From Thermoplasmata archaeon (GTDB taxonomy: Archaea > Thermoplasmatota > Thermoplasmata > Thermoplasmatales > GCA-001856825), in the NCBI GenBank assembly GCA_023256475.1, contig JAGDXP010000027.1:1-64000 (forward strand): a DNA stretch of 64,000 nucleotides, written 5' to 3'. A program made the position numbers and the translations under genes. Positions 6,378-59,049 of the stretch are shown one piece after another. How positions within the stretch are numbered: the first letter of the stretch is position 1; each line of letters opens with the position of its first letter. Under the pieces are notes generated by a model, which did no database searches, was not told where the DNA came from, and saw only the letters and a list, made by a program, of their open reading frames with translations.

Positions 6378-7124
6378 ATGCCCAATATATATTCTTTTAT
6401 ATTCAAAGAATTTAACTATCGTGTGGAATCCTGGCACCATCTTTTTCAGAAAATTGCCATACTTGACTTGTACATACGAGACTTCAAATGCAATAATATA
6501 GATTATATTGATTTAATTTACCGTGACCCTGACGGTGAGCTCGACATCCAAACTAACTTAGGTTTTGATAAGGTCACAAGTGAACCTATTAAATGGCTAC
6601 TAAATTCAAAATTAAATAAAAAAAGTTTAATTGATATCAAATGGCTTTACATATTCCCCAGATTAAAATGCATAGGCAACGTAATTCAGTTTATAATATT
6701 GATCAATAACCGGTCATTGGAAGCCTTTACCCATCTATTACTGGAAATCATTAGCCTTGATCAAAGGAATATGAATGTTTCTTTGAAGTACATGGATGAA
6801 ACCAGGGAAATACCTTTGAAATCATTGGGGGATATCCTGGGACTTAGATTAGAAAGTTTTCAATTCTCCTATGTTTCCCCCACCATTGATTTCTTCATGA
6901 TAAAGAAATTCGATAATATCGAAAATTCGCAATTCCTAATTTATACATACAGTTCTAGGGATTTTTCAATAGTAAATTTCGATTTTCTTTTTCCTACTTT
7001 CAACGATATTCCCTATTCTGTCTTAAACGATATCTTAAAAGATTTCGAAGAAAATAAGATCATCTCTCTTGTTGGTTCGTGCAACGGAAATTATTGTGAT
7101 GTAAAAATTCTCTCTAAAAGATAA
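6378..7124 (+). CDS. Hypothetical protein, unknown function
   Basis: 248 residues, soluble, rich in Ile, Asp, Asn and aromatic residues, with no membrane segment or recognised motif. A late hydrophobic stretch (LIKWLYIFPRLKCIGNVIQF region, about 85-105) looks like a buried core. It is transcribed away from the DUF47-PiT pair with 20 bases between start codons, and its 3' end overlaps the end of the convergent CDF gene by 11 bases. The codon use is like that of its neighbours. Function unknown. Confidence 0.55.
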   Translation: MPNIYSFIFKEFNYRVESWHHLFQKIAILDLYIRDFKCNNIDYIDLIYRDPDGELDIQTNLGFDKVTSEPIKWLLNSKLNKKSLIDIKWLYIFPRLKCIGNVIQFIILINNRSLEAFTHLLLEIISLDQRNMNVSLKYMDETREIPLKSLGDILGLRLESFQFSYVSPTIDFFMIKKFDNIENSQFLIYTYSSRDFSIVNFDFLFPTFNDIPYSVLNDILKDFEENKIISLVGSCNGNYCDVKILSKR

Positions 7125-8319
7125 TTTCCAATTTGCCATTTATGAATTCTTGTAAAACTTCTTCTGGTTTATTACCCTTTGTTAACCATATCCTTATGCC
7201 TAGACCCTTGAGCATCACCTTTGAATTTTCACCTATTTCATGACAGATAAGATCCGTTACTCCGAACCTTTCACATATTTCAACCAAATTTTTACCGTAC
7301 TTTGATGATGCTTTATTCTCTACTCTATCCATCAGCTTAAGGTCATTTGGATTATAGATCAGAAAATATTCTGCTCTGCTCACCTTATGGCTTATAGATT
7401 CCCCATCCATTGGTATCAAGACCTTCCTGATTCCTTTGACACTGGGCTCAATGTGGATGCTTATATTCCTTATATCCTTGAATTTTAGGTATATTGTCTT
7501 TTCCAACCTGTCTGCTATTTCATGGGCGTCAATAATGGTCAATGTTGGTTTAACCGTGATCACCACTTCACCGAAGATAACAGGGCCTGACCATCTCAAT
7601 CTTAAATCCTTTAATGATTCCACATCTTTGTCATGCAAGATTTCATCCCTAACTTGTCTCATTAAATTTTCATCTTTTGGAAGATCAAGGAGTGATATTA
7701 CGCTGCCTTTTCCTATTTCATATGCTGTAATCAATATGGCAATTACCGCAATTGCAATTGATATGTAGTAAAATAAAAGTTGTCTTGTAATTGAAAATAA
7801 TGCCAGGCCTATACCCACGCCTAGACCTTCATATACATCCGCATAAGTATGTCTGCCATCTTCCACCAATGATCCGAGGCTCAGAATCTTACCTGCCTTT
7901 ATTTTTAAAATTCCTGCAGCTGCCAATGGTATTATAGTGGCAATTTGTATTGCTGCGGGATAAATAGACAAGAGGCCTTCAGGTTTTATGGAATTTATGG
8001 CTATGTCGAAAGCAGAAAAAGCTACTATGATTGAGATTATAAATGATACCAAATCATCCAGTTTGTATAATCCATAGGAGAATTTCTTGGCATATTCGCC
8101 CTCAATAACCTTAAGTGTAATTAGAACCGTTGAGGTTATAGTTAGATCAATTAATACGTGAAATCCTTCCAGCAATAACACAGAATTGTGTAAAAATATC
8201 CCTGCAACTATTCTTGATAGCATTATAAATACCTGCAGGGCTAAAACTAATACTATGAGATTTCTTACATTTTCATTTGATTTCTCTTCCCGATTGCTTT
8301 GGGGCCTTTGGGATTCCAA
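7114..8319 (-). CDS. Cation diffusion facilitator with C-terminal NifX-like domain
   Basis: 401 residues. Residues 20-200 form a CDF transporter with six membrane helices and the two metal-site motifs: H54-x3-D58 (EGFHVLID) and H157-x3-D161 (RHTYAD). The CDF cytoplasmic domain follows at about 205-290 (IIDAHEIADRLEKTIYLKF). Residues about 295-401 (RKVLIPMDGESISHKVSRA, then LVEICERFGVTDLICHEIG and LGIRIWLTKG) look like the NifX/NifB dinitrogenase cofactor-binding fold. The family exports divalent metals; the added domain may sense or bind metal. The APC gene ends 15 bases upstream, so they are probably cotranscribed. Confidence 0.82.
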   Translation of the reverse strand: MESQRPQSNREEKSNENVRNLIVLVLALQVFIMLSRIVAGIFLHNSVLLLEGFHVLIDLTITSTVLITLKVIEGEYAKKFSYGLYKLDDLVSFIISIIVAFSAFDIAINSIKPEGLLSIYPAAIQIATIIPLAAAGILKIKAGKILSLGSLVEDGRHTYADVYEGLGVGIGLALFSITRQLLFYYISIAIAVIAILITAYEIGKGSVISLLDLPKDENLMRQVRDEILHDKDVESLKDLRLRWSGPVIFGEVVITVKPTLTIIDAHEIADRLEKTIYLKFKDIRNISIHIEPSVKGIRKVLIPMDGESISHKVSRAEYFLIYNPNDLKLMDRVENKASSKYGKNLVEICERFGVTDLICHEIGENSKVMLKGLGIRIWLTKGNKPEEVLQEFINGKLEIIF

Positions 8320-12415: not shown

Positions 12416-13537
12416 TTATAAGATTTCGCCTGCCTGATTCCTTTTATTGATGGGAAACATAATGAACGCTATATAAATTGTGGCTAAGAATGTAATAAGC
12501 ATCAAAATGAATGTTAAGATGGCGGCCTCAGGCAATATTGCAGGTATGTTGAATAACGGGTTTATTTCCTCGCTCGCGGGTATTCCACTATTCCCAATTA
12601 CTATTATATATGGATATCTGGATACATTCATTTGAATTTCGAAAAACATCATTAGGAAATAAGATAGAGCTGCCCCTATTATGGATAATGGATAAATTAG
12701 ATTCTTCAATAGCAAGCCTATGGAAAGTAGGACCATAATTATAGCCAGAACCTCACTTATGACAAGAGAATAATTACCCACCATTTGCGTGTAAATGTAC
12801 TGGGAATATGATTTGACTTCATATACAAGCCAAAGCATAAAGATTAGGGCCATCAATGAGGAAATTATTGTTATATTCCTAGATTGTTTCAAAATATGTT
12901 CTCCAAACTCACCTTTCTTTAACCTGTTATATGCATAAACCGTTACAATGAATGATGTTACGGCTATAGATATTAGCCATGTATATAGAACCAATGGGAG
13001 GTAAATGGGGTTCATGAAAACGTTTTGGCTATTAGGTACAAATAGAGTCAATCCACTTACTGTTTCTACCTTCACCCCATAAGGATAGTCAATTGTTGCG
13101 AAAATTGAGCTCATTCCCAATGGAACCAGTAATGCTCCTAGCGCCATGAATATTCCAACTACCATATGAACTCTTGAACTCATCTTGTCCCATGTATACC
13201 AATATATTGCCATAGAAACAATAGCTATCATTATTCCAACTATTGCCAAGCTAACTGGATAGAACAGGGTATCTGTCGCTGTGAATAGGAGAGAAGGCCA
13301 ATATCCTGCGAGGAAAACAGTTAGCCATGTTGCAAGAACACCGGCAAAAAGATCAACCCTTATAAGGTAGGATGTCAATTTCCTTGCGAATTCCACGTTT
13401 TCTTCCCTTCTTCCAAGTCTACCAGTTATTTCGAATATTGGTATAAGGACGGAAAGTCCCAATACCACTGTTACAAAGAAGTAATGGGCAAAGAATGTAA
13501 ATGCAATTCCTATTAAACCCCACTGGAGGTTATTCAC
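12416..13537 (-). CDS. cydB: Cytochrome bd oxidase subunit II
   Basis: 373 residues, about nine membrane helices. It begins NNLQWGLIGIAFTFFAHYFF and has the subunit II pattern, with the charged loop RLGRREENVEFARKLTSYLIRVDLFAGVLATWL early on. With CydA it forms a quinol:O2 oxidoreductase in the cytoplasmic membrane. Its GTG start overlaps the cydA stop codon (GTGA at 13534-13537), implying coupled translation. It is somewhat divergent from bacterial CydB, so assignment rests on both sequence pattern and linkage. Confidence 0.82.
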   Translation of the reverse strand: MNNLQWGLIGIAFTFFAHYFFVTVVLGLSVLIPIFEITGRLGRREENVEFARKLTSYLIRVDLFAGVLATWLTVFLAGYWPSLLFTATDTLFYPVSLAIVGIMIAIVSMAIYWYTWDKMSSRVHMVVGIFMALGALLVPLGMSSIFATIDYPYGVKVETVSGLTLFVPNSQNVFMNPIYLPLVLYTWLISIAVTSFIVTVYAYNRLKKGEFGEHILKQSRNITIISSLMALIFMLWLVYEVKSYSQYIYTQMVGNYSLVISEVLAIIMVLLSIGLLLKNLIYPLSIIGAALSYFLMMFFEIQMNVSRYPYIIVIGNSGIPASEEINPLFNIPAILPEAAILTFILMLITFLATIYIAFIMFPINKRNQAGEIL

Positions 13538-15060
13538 CTTACCACCCCATTATATTTTTTAAACCCTTTTAAATAAATCAAATAAAATCCCCAGAGACCT
13601 GCAAAGAGAATTGCCAATTCCATCAGCATAATCATTATTGTAAACCATATAGTGATTGGATGGGGCGTTACAACTTCTGGATAAGTGACAAGGCCATAGA
13701 TCGTCCATGGATGCCTGCCCATTTCCCTAGCTGCCCATCCTGAGATTGATGCAACAGCTCCTGAAAATGCTCCTAAGAATGATGCATATACCAAGAATTG
13801 TTCCGTATTTCTTCTGAATATTGCCCTTATGATCCTGTCAATGAATTTAACATAGAGACCAAAGTATGCCACAGCCAGTATGAATAGAACAACACCGAGT
13901 ATTACCATGGTATAATAGAAGAAATGTATCCATGGACCATAAGTGATGCTGGCCTGAATAGTCATCTGAGCATATGGATTATTTGCCCCAGGGAGGGATT
14001 CCAGATATTCATATCCTCTGAAGTAATGGTTAAAGTTTCCATATAAGAGGAAGCTCAATATTGGATCGTAGCCACCCCTTGGCCCAATTCCTTCTGATGC
14101 ATAAAATATATTTCTCTGGAACAAGTATAACAGCCTTCCCTGCTGGTCCCCTGCGATTGGTTGAAGTATGGAAGCAATTGCACCCACTCCAAAAGTAACT
14201 TTCAATGCTTTTAAGTTATAATCGTATTTTCCATACCCTTTAATTATCTTGTATGAAACATATGAAGCAGCTATGAAGGATGTATCTATTGTTGCTGCAA
14301 GTAAATTATGCACATAAGTAATGACTGCTTCAGGGTTTACTATAGCTATCCAAGGATCTGTGGTGAACGGTGATAACAATTGAAACGCATTGGGAGATGC
14401 CAGTACTATAGATCCATAATTTGATAGTGCACCAGCCAATATTCCCAGTGATTTAGAGTTTACAACATCTGGTCCCAAAGTTGGAACCCATGGCAGTATA
14501 TTTTGACCAACAAAATTACCTGTTCCCCATGGAACCTGCATCCATGCATTAACGGCAAGAATCATATATGCGGACAGGTTTGATCCAAAAAGCACTCCGA
14601 AGCCTAATAGCATATGAATTATTCTATGATTTTTGAGAATATCAAAAGTAGTGAGATAGGTACCTATAAGGACTATTTCAATTATGAATGCGTAAAGCTC
14701 AATAATTAGCGGGGCAGCAGCCATGGATGCTATTAGTGCAATGGATCCAGACCATATGACCACTAAGCCAAATTCAACTAAGGTACCGGTTACTGCACCT
14801 GCAGCGAAGCTTATTCCCCATATCTTTGATGCATTCTTCGCCAACTTGAAATAATCATTGTCCTTCTTTATGGTGCCTATAGCCTCAAAAGTTAATACCA
14901 CTATTGGAAAGCCCACCGCAAATATAAGAAATAAAGCATGAACGTAAATCCCAAGAATGGTCATGTATTCGGCCAGATTAGCATTTGCCCATGCTGAAGA
15001 TAAATCCAACGGGACTTTATTCAGGGGCAATAATTGCGGAATAACCATGGAATCTAGCAT
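13534..15060 (-). CDS. cydA: Cytochrome bd oxidase subunit I
   Basis: 508 residues from the ATG at 15060; an in-frame TTG at 15099 is open. Membrane oxidase subunit that holds the haems. Visible signatures are YVHALFLIFAVG (first-helix His), AFIIEIVLIGTYLTTFD (conserved Glu of the proton path), AVNAWMQVPWG, VHNLLAAT (haem His), IAGDQQGR followed by FQRNIFYASEG in place of the usual QPxKxAAxEG, TMVILG (haem Met) and GRHPW. The quinol loop is short, as in CIO-type enzymes. A TATA-like element at about 15076-15085 could give it a promoter of its own, though it also follows glpD by 84 bases. Confidence 0.88.
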   Translation of the reverse strand: MLDSMVIPQLLPLNKVPLDLSSAWANANLAEYMTILGIYVHALFLIFAVGFPIVVLTFEAIGTIKKDNDYFKLAKNASKIWGISFAAGAVTGTLVEFGLVVIWSGSIALIASMAAAPLIIELYAFIIEIVLIGTYLTTFDILKNHRIIHMLLGFGVLFGSNLSAYMILAVNAWMQVPWGTGNFVGQNILPWVPTLGPDVVNSKSLGILAGALSNYGSIVLASPNAFQLLSPFTTDPWIAIVNPEAVITYVHNLLAATIDTSFIAASYVSYKIIKGYGKYDYNLKALKVTFGVGAIASILQPIAGDQQGRLLYLFQRNIFYASEGIGPRGGYDPILSFLLYGNFNHYFRGYEYLESLPGANNPYAQMTIQASITYGPWIHFFYYTMVILGVVLFILAVAYFGLYVKFIDRIIRAIFRRNTEQFLVYASFLGAFSGAVASISGWAAREMGRHPWTIYGLVTYPEVVTPHPITIWFTIMIMLMELAILFAGLWGFYLIYLKGFKKYNGVVR

Positions 15061-15144
15061 GAACAATGATTCGTATCTATAAATATGAAAATTGTTCAAA
15101 TTTAGGGGAATTTAATTTTTTTAAATTTCAGGGACCCTAAATAA

Positions 15145-16497
15145 TTATTTAGATCTGTATTCCCTGAGTTTTTCGTCTATCAGGCTTTTTAAACTTTCGC
15201 CACCATCTTTTTTAAAAAAGAATAAACCGAGTCGTCTTTTTATAATATCCTCTGTATATAAAGGCATTTCATATCTTATTACTTGGTCTAGCAATGTTTC
15301 AATTGTTCCCGGGCTATTTCTCTGATATAATATCTGCGGAAGTCCTTTGGTATATATCTTTCTCCCCAATAATCTTTCGATGTATTTAGCAGAATGCCTC
15401 GCTGCATTTCTGTAATTTGTGATTTTAACTCCCATGATAGAAACCATTCTCCTATCAATTTCTATATGAAAATCTCTGGTAACTCTGCCTGGTGAATTTC
15501 CCCTTCCATAAAGAGGCCTTATACCTGCATATCCTCTTAGAATATCTTCTTCCTTTAGATCTGGTATTATCCTCTTTGCAGATCTGAAAATATAATCTCT
15601 GTCCTCGTCATCAATAGAGAATTCATTTGGAGAATCAACGAATTTATCAGTCGTACCAATTATTAGAGTTTCGTCCCTAGGTATAATGAACATTTGCCTT
15701 CCATCTATATGAGACTTAAATGCTATGGGATTTTTAATATACCCCTTGTTTTCCACTATTACATGAGATCCCTTGGATAATTTTAAATTGCTTATTTTTT
15801 TACCTGTATACATTTTAAGCGTTTCATTTACCCAAGGACCTGTGGCATTAATAACTATTTTGCAGATTGCCTTACCTGAAGTCCCAGACACCTTATCTAA
15901 TATTTTTACCTCCACTTGGTTAGCTTCCTTATCATTGATTTCTGTCACCTCTGCATAATTAATAGCTTTTGAACCATTCATTGCACCTGATACTATGTTT
16001 GAAATGGTTAGATAGGCATCATCTGATACCGCGTCGGTATACGTAAAATACCCCTTGAATCCCTTGTAACTGTATTTATCCCTATACATTTTTGGAATTC
16101 TAAGCTTTCCACCAATAATTTCATATAGGAACAAACCGAACCTTATGGTCATTGGATTCCAGGAGTAGTTATCTATGAGAATGTTGAATTCCTTCTCTTC
16201 TACGAAATTTGTATTTTTAACTAAATAGTTTCTCTCGCGCAGCAGCTCTCTTGTTAATAGTATATGCCCCTGCTGCAGATATCTGATCCCGCCATGAATG
16301 AGTTTTGATGAATAACTTGATGTTCCAGATGCAAAATCACCCTTGTCCACAAGCAATGTTGAGATGCCATTGGCTGAAAGAAGATTGAATATTCCAGCAC
16401 CTGCAATGCCACCACCTATTACGCAAGCATCAAAATATTTGCCATTTAATCCATGAACAATTATCTCTCTGGTTTTAAGTGAAAAATCTAGCTCCAT
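15145..16497 (-). CDS. glpD: FAD-dependent glycerol-3-phosphate dehydrogenase
   Basis: 450 residues. The N-terminal dinucleotide-binding motif CVIGGGIAGAGIFNLLSANG is followed by LLVDKGDFASGTSSYSSKLIHGGIRYL, the GlpA/GlpD signature. The C-terminal part has GYAGIRPLYG and NYRNAARHSAKY. It oxidises sn-glycerol-3-phosphate to dihydroxyacetone phosphate and passes electrons to membrane quinone. I choose the ATG at 16497: GGTGAT at 16501-16506 lies three bases before it and overlaps the upstream GDPD stop codon, so the two are translationally coupled. cydAB follow on the same strand. It is shorter than E. coli GlpD and lacks an obvious Cys-rich GlpA tail. Confidence 0.9.
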   Translation of the reverse strand: MELDFSLKTREIIVHGLNGKYFDACVIGGGIAGAGIFNLLSANGISTLLVDKGDFASGTSSYSSKLIHGGIRYLQQGHILLTRELLRERNYLVKNTNFVEEKEFNILIDNYSWNPMTIRFGLFLYEIIGGKLRIPKMYRDKYSYKGFKGYFTYTDAVSDDAYLTISNIVSGAMNGSKAINYAEVTEINDKEANQVEVKILDKVSGTSGKAICKIVINATGPWVNETLKMYTGKKISNLKLSKGSHVIVENKGYIKNPIAFKSHIDGRQMFIIPRDETLIIGTTDKFVDSPNEFSIDDEDRDYIFRSAKRIIPDLKEEDILRGYAGIRPLYGRGNSPGRVTRDFHIEIDRRMVSIMGVKITNYRNAARHSAKYIERLLGRKIYTKGLPQILYQRNSPGTIETLLDQVIRYEMPLYTEDIIKRRLGLFFFKKDGGESLKSLIDEKLREYRSK

Positions 16498-16500
16498 TAT

Positions 16501-16506
16501 ATCACC
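16501..16506 (-). promoter_or_regulatory. Shine-Dalgarno deciding the glpD start
   Basis: On the minus strand GGTGAT here is complementary to the 16S rRNA 3' end and stands three bases before the ATG at 16497. It covers the TGA stop of the GDPD gene (16504-16502), which points to reinitiation or coupled translation and argues against the upstream ATG at 16515. Confidence 0.6.
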
Positions 16507-17209
16507 TGTATTCATTTAGAATGTCAACCCTGTCAGAGATGACACCGGCATAAGCCTTTTCTTTTAGTAGTATGAATAAACCTGGATCATTAACAACCCA
16601 TGGTATGATTTTGCTTCTCTCATAAACATCCAATATTGACAATAAATTTACTTCTGGCAAGACTAACCCTATCTTTTGTAAGTAAAATTCAACATTTCGC
16701 ATTCCCAGCATTGCAATGGATTCCGAATCCATATCTAATCCGTACGTATATTGTGGCCATTTTTCCTTACAATATATTAGAGGTAATGGATCAAAAGAAA
16801 TTATTGTGTCCCTTCTTCCGTAAGTAAGGGATAGTGATATCACCTTATCTACCAAATCTGGATAAAACCTCCTCCCTTTTTCATCCATGGTCTTTAACTC
16901 AACATATAGTTTAACATCTATATGTCTAAACACATCTTCAAGGGTAGGAATCCCATAATCCTTTCCTGGAAATTTTAACCTCTTTATTTCCTCCCATGTA
17001 AGGTCATATATGAATTCCCCCATATGAAATAGCCTTCTGAGATCATAATCATGAAACACCAAAAGCTCACCATCTTTTGATTCATGAACATCCAGTTCTA
17101 TGGCATCAGCACCATTGGTCAAAGCGTCCTTGAAAGCTGGTATTGTATTTTCTATGTTGTTCAGTGCCAAACCACGATGTGCTATAATTTCCACATAACC
17201 GGAAGCCAT
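16502..17209 (-). CDS. Glycerophosphodiester phosphodiesterase
   Basis: 235 residues, a GDPD TIM barrel. Catalytic signatures: IIAHRGLALNNIENTIPAF (HRG and EN) near the N-terminus, GADAIELDVHESKDGELLVFHD (metal-binding E-x-D and the catalytic His), VKLYVELKT, and a late VNDPGLF. It hydrolyses glycerophosphodiesters to glycerol-3-phosphate and an alcohol. There is no signal peptide, so it should be cytoplasmic. I prefer the ATG at 17209 because a TATA-like box (TAGTATAATT, minus strand, about 17231-17242) lies 22-33 bases before it; an ATG at 17263 is also in frame. It is the first gene of the glpD-coupled unit. Confidence 0.88.
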   Translation of the reverse strand: MASGYVEIIAHRGLALNNIENTIPAFKDALTNGADAIELDVHESKDGELLVFHDYDLRRLFHMGEFIYDLTWEEIKRLKFPGKDYGIPTLEDVFRHIDVKLYVELKTMDEKGRRFYPDLVDKVISLSLTYGRRDTIISFDPLPLIYCKEKWPQYTYGLDMDSESIAMLGMRNVEFYLQKIGLVLPEVNLLSILDVYERSKIIPWVVNDPGLFILLKEKAYAGVISDRVDILNEYR

Positions 17210-57990: not shown

Positions 57991-59049
57991 GTGCCCTTCG
58001 AAAAGCTAACAGAAATGATCTTGCCACGCATTGTCATAGGTGGACATGGAGCTATTGAAAAAATAGGAGAGGTTTATGAAAAAGTAGGAGGGGCAAAAAA
58101 ATGTATAATTGTTACCGGTGAGGTAACTTCTAAATTGGCTGGAAACAAAGTATTTGAAATTTTAAATTCCATGAATGTTGATGCGAAAATAATCAACGTA
58201 GGAAAAGCCACTGATGAAAATGTTGAAACGGTTAAATCCGAAGCAAAGAAAATAGGTGCCGAAACTATTATCGGGGTAGGTGGGGGTACAAAGATAGATA
58301 TTTCTAAAAAAGCCTCGTTTGATCTTGGAATTGATTTTATTTCAGTACCCACATCAGCTAGCCATGATGGTGTTGCATCCCCAAGAGCGTCCATAATCAG
58401 AAATGGAATATCCGTGTCCGTGGAGGCAAATATGCCTGTGGCTATAGTAGCTGACACCGAAATTATGGTTAAGGCACCCTTTAGATACCTGGCGTCTGGA
58501 GCTGCCGATGTTCTTTCTAATATCACAGCAGTAAAAGACTGGGCTTTGGCCCATAGGCTTAAGGGAGAGAGGATAAGTAACTCTGCAATGATGATATCAG
58601 AATTTGCAGCGAAAGAAATAATAAATAATGCTTCACAAATTAAACCGAATCTGGAGGAAAGCGTTTGGTTCGTCATGAAACAGATAGCTTATTCAGGAAT
58701 AGCCATGAGCATTGCGGGTTCCTCCAGACCAGCTTCTGGATCAGAACATATGTTTGCACATGCCGTAGAGGCACTGGGTAAAAGCCAGGCACTTCATGGC
58801 GAACTGTGCGGTATCGGTACCATAATTTCTATGTATCTGCACGGAGGGGACTGGAAAATGATTAAAGATACATTGGAAAAGATAGGGGCCCCAACGCAAT
58901 TTTATCAAGTTGGTCTAACAGAGGATGAGGGTGTTCAGGCTCTCATGATGGCCCATAAAATAAGGCCGGACAGGTATACCATATTGGGAGAAAATGGCCT
59001 TAGCGAAGCTGCTGCTAGAGAGGCTGTAAGAATAACAGGGGTGGTATAA
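57991..59049 (+). CDS. egsA: sn-Glycerol-1-phosphate dehydrogenase
   Basis: 352 residues from a GTG. Iron/zinc-dependent dehydrogenase fold: IIGVGGGTKIDISKKASFD (NAD(P) loop), ISVPTSASHDGVASPRASI (the G1PDH signature), SRPASGSEHMFAHAVEAL (metal His) and QALHGELCGIGTIISM. It reduces dihydroxyacetone phosphate to sn-glycerol-1-phosphate, the stereochemical hallmark of archaeal lipids. It begins a run with UPF0179 and the GTPase (4 and -4 base junctions). Confidence 0.96.
   Translation: MPFEKLTEMILPRIVIGGHGAIEKIGEVYEKVGGAKKCIIVTGEVTSKLAGNKVFEILNSMNVDAKIINVGKATDENVETVKSEAKKIGAETIIGVGGGTKIDISKKASFDLGIDFISVPTSASHDGVASPRASIIRNGISVSVEANMPVAIVADTEIMVKAPFRYLASGAADVLSNITAVKDWALAHRLKGERISNSAMMISEFAAKEIINNASQIKPNLEESVWFVMKQIAYSGIAMSIAGSSRPASGSEHMFAHAVEALGKSQALHGELCGIGTIISMYLHGGDWKMIKDTLEKIGAPTQFYQVGLTEDEGVQALMMAHKIRPDRYTILGENGLSEAAAREAVRITGVV

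Follow-up and report, generated by a model that had tools for sequence, protein, structure and literature searches.

A glycerophosphodiesterase-GlpD gene pair beside a CydAA'-type oxidase operon in a Thermoplasmata archaeon

The window analyzed, a stretch of 64,000 nucleotides from a Thermoplasmata contig, contains four genes that a previous sequence-only reading had combined into a single scavenging respiratory cluster. Our data indicate that these genes probably form two neighboring units, namely, a GDPD-glpD salvage operon and a separately transcribed cydA-cydA' operon. In the route that we propose, a cytosolic glycerophosphodiester phosphodiesterase (GDPD) would hydrolyze glycerophosphodiesters or lysophospholipids to G3P, and a GlpD-type flavoprotein would convert G3P to DHAP with reduction of the membrane quinone. 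The cydA-cydA' operon would be transcribed from its own start, and its product, a CydAA'-type oxygen reductase, may tap the same quinone pool as GlpD, alongside a haem-copper oxidase encoded elsewhere. Each part of the locus is already known, and the claim of a single unit is the weakest part.

Gene order in related genomes

The host genome (G000) is an 89% complete MAG of 1.39 Mb in 28 contigs from an acid-environment archaeon. Together with a sister species (G001) it forms genus g1, and two further genomes, G002 and G004, represent other genera of the same family. The genus g1 MAGs are 89% complete, yet G000 and G001 concur on each of the absences reported below. All four genes were located on the minus strand at the positions first given for them, and each matched a protein family. 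Elsewhere in the window (7114-8319), a cation diffusion facilitator is fused to a C-terminal dinitrogenase iron-molybdenum cofactor-type domain (PF02579).

The complete order GDPD-glpD-cydA-cydA' was also found in G001 and, in another genus, in G004, where contigs C8 and C51 (L064 and L081) overlap by 55 nt inside cydA, an assembly break. A third genus (G002) has glpD-cydA-cydA' with GDPD not adjacent. In the fourth, g3, an ArsA-like ATPase gene precedes cydAA', and glpD is found elsewhere. The comparison of gene order that had been proposed as a check thus had a divided outcome, with glpD-cydAA' kept in three genera (and GDPD in two of them) and lost in g3. The genes downstream of cydAA', which include an EamA transporter, an HxlR-type regulator and a methyltransferase among others, are largely kept in g3, so that the tie between glpD and cyd has been preserved less well than these functionally unlinked neighbors. 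Where it persists, the glpD-cydA adjacency does so at 53-56% GlpD identity. The GlpD and CydA trees agree, with g1 branching first, followed by g2/g4 and g3, which leaves two possibilities for the adjacency: an early origin in the family with later loss in g3, or two separate gains. We also considered horizontal arrival of the entire four-gene block and rejected it, since the GlpD and CydA trees are concordant within the family and GlpD orthologues occur in other contexts in sister lineages.

The oxidase genes and the gap upstream of cydA

The product of cydA (13534..15060, minus strand) is a bd-type oxidase catalytic subunit that matched PF01654 with 230 bits (6.3e-68) and PDB entry 5doq with 2.2e-32. 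The His, His, Met and Glu at the haem-ligand positions are kept. The quinol-site Lys (K252 in E. coli) is Ile in every readable genome of the window's family, f1, and Lys in family f3, and the Glu that follows is kept. Within a sample of 350 genomes from the class, only f1 and f3 contained CydA of the window type, defined by strong matches that span most of the protein.

The following gene (12416..13537, minus strand) had been named cydB. Its 373-amino-acid product had no match to CydB (PF02322) and instead matched the CydA family, PF01654, with 49 bits (3.5e-13), as did its orthologues with 50 and 72 bits (2.9e-13 and 3.2e-20). The predicted structure (pLDDT 80) agrees, in that ten CydA chains from the PDB rank before the first CydB chain. 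The second subunit thus belongs to the CydA family by sequence and fold, which makes the oxidase one of the CydAA' type. We consequently refer to the gene as cydA', a correction that is relevant for annotation. The GTGA said to be shared by cydA and cydB is present as an overlap (13537-13534), although the downstream gene is a cydA paralogue. CydAA' bd-type oxygen reductases are known in Archaea (Murali, Gennis and Hemp 2021, as relayed in PMC9287336 and PMC12542729). With the archaeal enzymes as outlined there, the window shares tandem PF01654 paralogues of which the second replaces CydB, whereas the usual quinol-site Lys is Ile in f1; this placement draws on families and folds.

The interval between glpD and cydA measures 84 nt (15144-15061), as had been reported, and ranges from 84 to 111 nt in the relatives. 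It contains a BRE/TATA-like block of 19 nt, TGAAATTTAAAAAAATTAA (15130-15112, minus strand), the last 18 bases of which are unchanged in G001, though a large part of the remaining gap sequence differs. When the 84 nt were scored for TATA elements, the best match was no better than those in shuffled gaps, and for this reason only conservation was used as evidence for a promoter. In genus g3, in which cydA lacks the upstream glpD, TTAAATATAG is found approximately 27 nt before the ATG, a leaderless position. Taken together, the conserved block and the g3 box favor, but do not prove, the earlier suggestion that cydA may have its own promoter, and transcriptional read-through from glpD into cydA is possible.

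These observations bear on the alternative that all four genes form one co-transcribed respiratory unit leading from glycerophosphodiester to O2, with CydAA' as the dedicated oxidase of GlpD. The strand and order common to G000, G001 and G004, the glpD-cydAA' arrangement of G002, and the agreement of the GlpD and CydA trees, according to which the genes descended together in these lineages, are in its favor. We nevertheless consider it unlikely in view of the gap of 84-111 nt with its promoter-like block, the absence of the adjacency in g3, where the unlinked EamA/HxlR/methyltransferase block is better kept, and the separate position of GDPD in G002. Furthermore, haem-copper oxidase subunit I is encoded on contig C5 of G000, so that there are at least two possible exits for electrons from G3P. 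The electron path first proposed, from GlpD via quinone and CydAA' to O2, is chemically possible, but no specific link between the genes was found, the adjacency is lost in g3, and a second oxidase is present; GDPD-glpD and cydAA' as one scavenging respiratory machine is thus weakly supported. As to the quinone, the menaquinone marker PF02621 had no match in G000 or G001.

GDPD, GlpD and the source of G3P

In a profile search, the GDPD gene product (16502..17194, minus strand) matched PF03009 with 107.9 bits (cut-off 23.6; 1.2e-30). It aligned with PDB entry 1o1z (2.4e-19), and the catalytic motifs HRG, ENT, ELDV and FHD were present, features from which the release of G3P from glycerophosphodiesters is predicted. 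The gene had been assigned an ATG start at 17209. A GTG at 17194 is the more probable start because a TATA-like box, AATAATAAATAT (17227-17216, minus strand), is located 21 nt from it, with its center 27 nt upstream, and both sequence and spacing are identical in the two genus g1 species. The GDPD of G004, which is 34% identical to that of the window, begins with MEIIGHRG, in line with the shorter start. The HRG motif follows approximately 5 residues after the GTG start and leaves no space for a signal peptide, and GDPD is accordingly predicted to be cytosolic. A GDPD tree neither supported nor rejected a single clade of the G004 and g1 sequences (p-AU 0.28).

The glpD gene (15145..16497, minus strand) encodes a DAO flavoprotein with a shortened C-terminal domain that scored 235 bits against the PRK12266 glpD model (1.2e-69) as compared to 144 bits against the GlpA model, and that matched PDB entries 3da1 (2.9e-53) and 2qcu (6.8e-41). 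Its predicted structure (pLDDT 90) matches GlpO/GlpD folds. The active-site residues R72, H245, R327, R341 and K358 showed no variation among 17 relatives; they align with the Arg, His, Arg, Arg and Lys of the G3P site in the E. coli GlpD structure. The window protein shares fold and G3P-site residues with E. coli GlpD (2qcu) and differs from it in its shortened C-terminal DAO_C domain (PF16901), which is under the Pfam threshold. This domain gave no match in the window protein, and the relatives were 23-25 bits below cut-off; the model aligns over the GlpD fold. GlpO structures ranked equal to GlpD structures in the fold search; an assignment as a GlpO-type oxidase was rejected because the NCBIfam score for GlpD exceeded that for GlpO. 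GlpD is predicted to pass the electrons of G3P to the membrane quinone.

The GDPD-glpD coupling described in the first reading was confirmed. The GDPD stop codon (TGA, 16504-16502) is followed after 4 nt by the glpD ATG (16497), and a Shine-Dalgarno motif, AGGTGAT (16501..16507, minus strand), read directly from the sequence, overlaps the stop; the arrangement is the same in G001. Other sources of G3P were searched for in G000 and G001. Neither genome has a true glycerol kinase (a weak FGGY kinase only, with 96 bits as compared to 495-513 bits in G002 and G004), GpsA (best match 33 bits, N-terminal part only) or GlpT (62 bits, cut-off 408). In the absence of these three proteins, GDPD is the sole recognized source of G3P in genus g1, and no other finding supports the predicted GDPD-to-G3P step as strongly.

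An EgsA-like protein (Fe-ADH_2 match, 3.9e-36) is indeed encoded at 57991, and the G3P had been considered foreign on the premise that the cell makes G1P lipids, with bacterial or eukaryotic lipid debris as its origin. This proposal is unsupported, given that no GlpT-type importer was found, that GDPD is predicted to be cytosolic, and that native headgroups could supply G3P. The archaeal archaetidylglycerol synthase (Ags) is thought to use G3P, with its stereospecificity unproven (reviewed in PMC9385802), so that headgroup turnover is the native source to exclude first. Most likely, G3P would come from the turnover of the cell's own lipid headgroups or from small intracellular diesters and not from a dedicated debris-scavenging machine. 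The role of G3P in a cell that has a G1P membrane and neither glycerol kinase nor GpsA is now a testable question, for which the unproven stereospecificity of Ags is one lead. A similar sequence of reactions, in which glycerophosphodiesters yield G3P that is then oxidized by a flavoenzyme, is the GlpQ to GlpD/GlpO route of Mycoplasma pneumoniae, as outlined in PMC3178575. In comparison with that outline, the window enzyme is expected to reduce quinone and not O2 directly, and its gene is operon-coupled to GDPD, in an archaeon.

Genomic contexts of glpD and GDPD

In families f6 and f3, glpD is located between genes for an AGPS-family flavoenzyme, which matched the alkyl-DHAP synthase structure PDB 2uuu with 1.6e-69, and a DAGK/YegS kinase. 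Most g3 genomes have glpD beside SCP2 and an iron alcohol dehydrogenase (Fe-ADH) of the same cluster, whereas G002 and G004 have kept AGPS-DAGK-FeADH-SCP2 without glpD; neither genus g1 genome has AGPS or DAGK. This distribution, with glpD in the cluster elsewhere, outside it in G002 and G004, and AGPS and DAGK lost in g1, suggests a relocation of glpD from an ether-lipid cluster to the side of cydAA'.

The cluster of AGPS-family flavoenzyme, DAGK/YegS kinase, SCP2 and Fe-ADH, usually with GlpD, was observed at L088:9213-14685, L082:271-10327, L095:8135-10988, L096:6818-10780, L125:6354-10517 and L126:6914-10970. Three families of the order have conserved it, and in one g3 genome it additionally contains an ALDH, a ThDP enzyme and a 2-hydroxyacid dehydrogenase. 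The cluster is possibly an archaeal alkyl-ether lipid pathway; a literature search retrieved no paper describing an AGPS-GlpD-DAGK cluster.

An archaeal GDPD, that of Pyrococcus furiosus, acts as a lysophospholipase D (PMC4926365). Together with the position of glpD beside AGPS and DAGK in other families, and beside SCP2 and Fe-ADH in g3, this activity lends some plausibility to a reading in which the window GDPD is a lysophospholipase D that releases alkyl-G3P and GlpD converts alkyl-G3P to alkyl-DHAP, as a remnant of the AGPS-GlpD-DAGK cluster. We consider this improbable, since AGPS and DAGK are missing from genus g1 and the G3P-binding residues of GlpD are unchanged. Its extension, in which the pair handles alkylated glycerophosphates and not free G3P, as a leftover of AGPS-GlpD-DAGK ether-lipid turnover, and delivers the electrons via quinone to CydAA', is very improbable.

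The salvage function that we favor for GDPD-glpD is consistent with the neighborhoods of GDPD in 61 genomes of the order, which contain 46 GDPD loci. A G3P dehydrogenase or glycerol kinase (GK) gene adjoins GDPD at 9 of these loci. GDPD and glpD are neighbors in G000, G001 and G004 and divergently oriented in G031; GDPD-GlpA-CoxG (CoxG, PF06240) is found in G025, G033, G035 and G051, with a truncated GDPD in G033; and GDPD and GK are divergent in G020. As approximately 0.2 such loci are expected by chance (a rough figure that assumes a neighborhood of ~4 kb, two targets per genome and genomes of 1.6 Mb), the pairing of GDPD in four to five separate lineages is well beyond chance. The earlier idea that GDPD supplies GlpD with G3P is thus well supported by the coupling signals, the recurrent neighbors and the lack of another recognized G3P source.

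It could be argued that all four genes are chance neighbors, retained by the synteny of small, slowly rearranging genomes and functionally unlinked even in the case of GDPD and glpD, because unrelated flanking genes are likewise conserved across the family. This explanation is very unlikely, as the pairing of GDPD with a G3P dehydrogenase recurs in separate lineages, also with a different dehydrogenase family (GlpA-CoxG), and translational coupling signals connect GDPD and glpD.

In a survey of archaeal G3P dehydrogenases, the glpD group is reported to lack an operon-like structure (PMC11962113), and the GDPD-glpD pair thus gives these enzymes an operon context. The GlpA-CoxG system of Sulfolobus acidocaldarius (PMC11962113) likewise feeds electrons from FAD-dependent G3P oxidation by an archaeon into the quinone pool; the window protein differs in being GlpD-type and in lacking CoxG, while Thermoplasmatales relatives of the window genome carry GDPD-GlpA-CoxG operons. 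GDPD-GlpA-CoxG is an independent coupling of GDPD to a G3P dehydrogenase, with CoxG as the anchor. The operon was observed in a genus of another family at L127:5780-8174, L128:6053-8450, L129:5335-7729 and L132:4794-7025, with overlapping starts and stops in three of the genomes and a truncated GDPD in L132.
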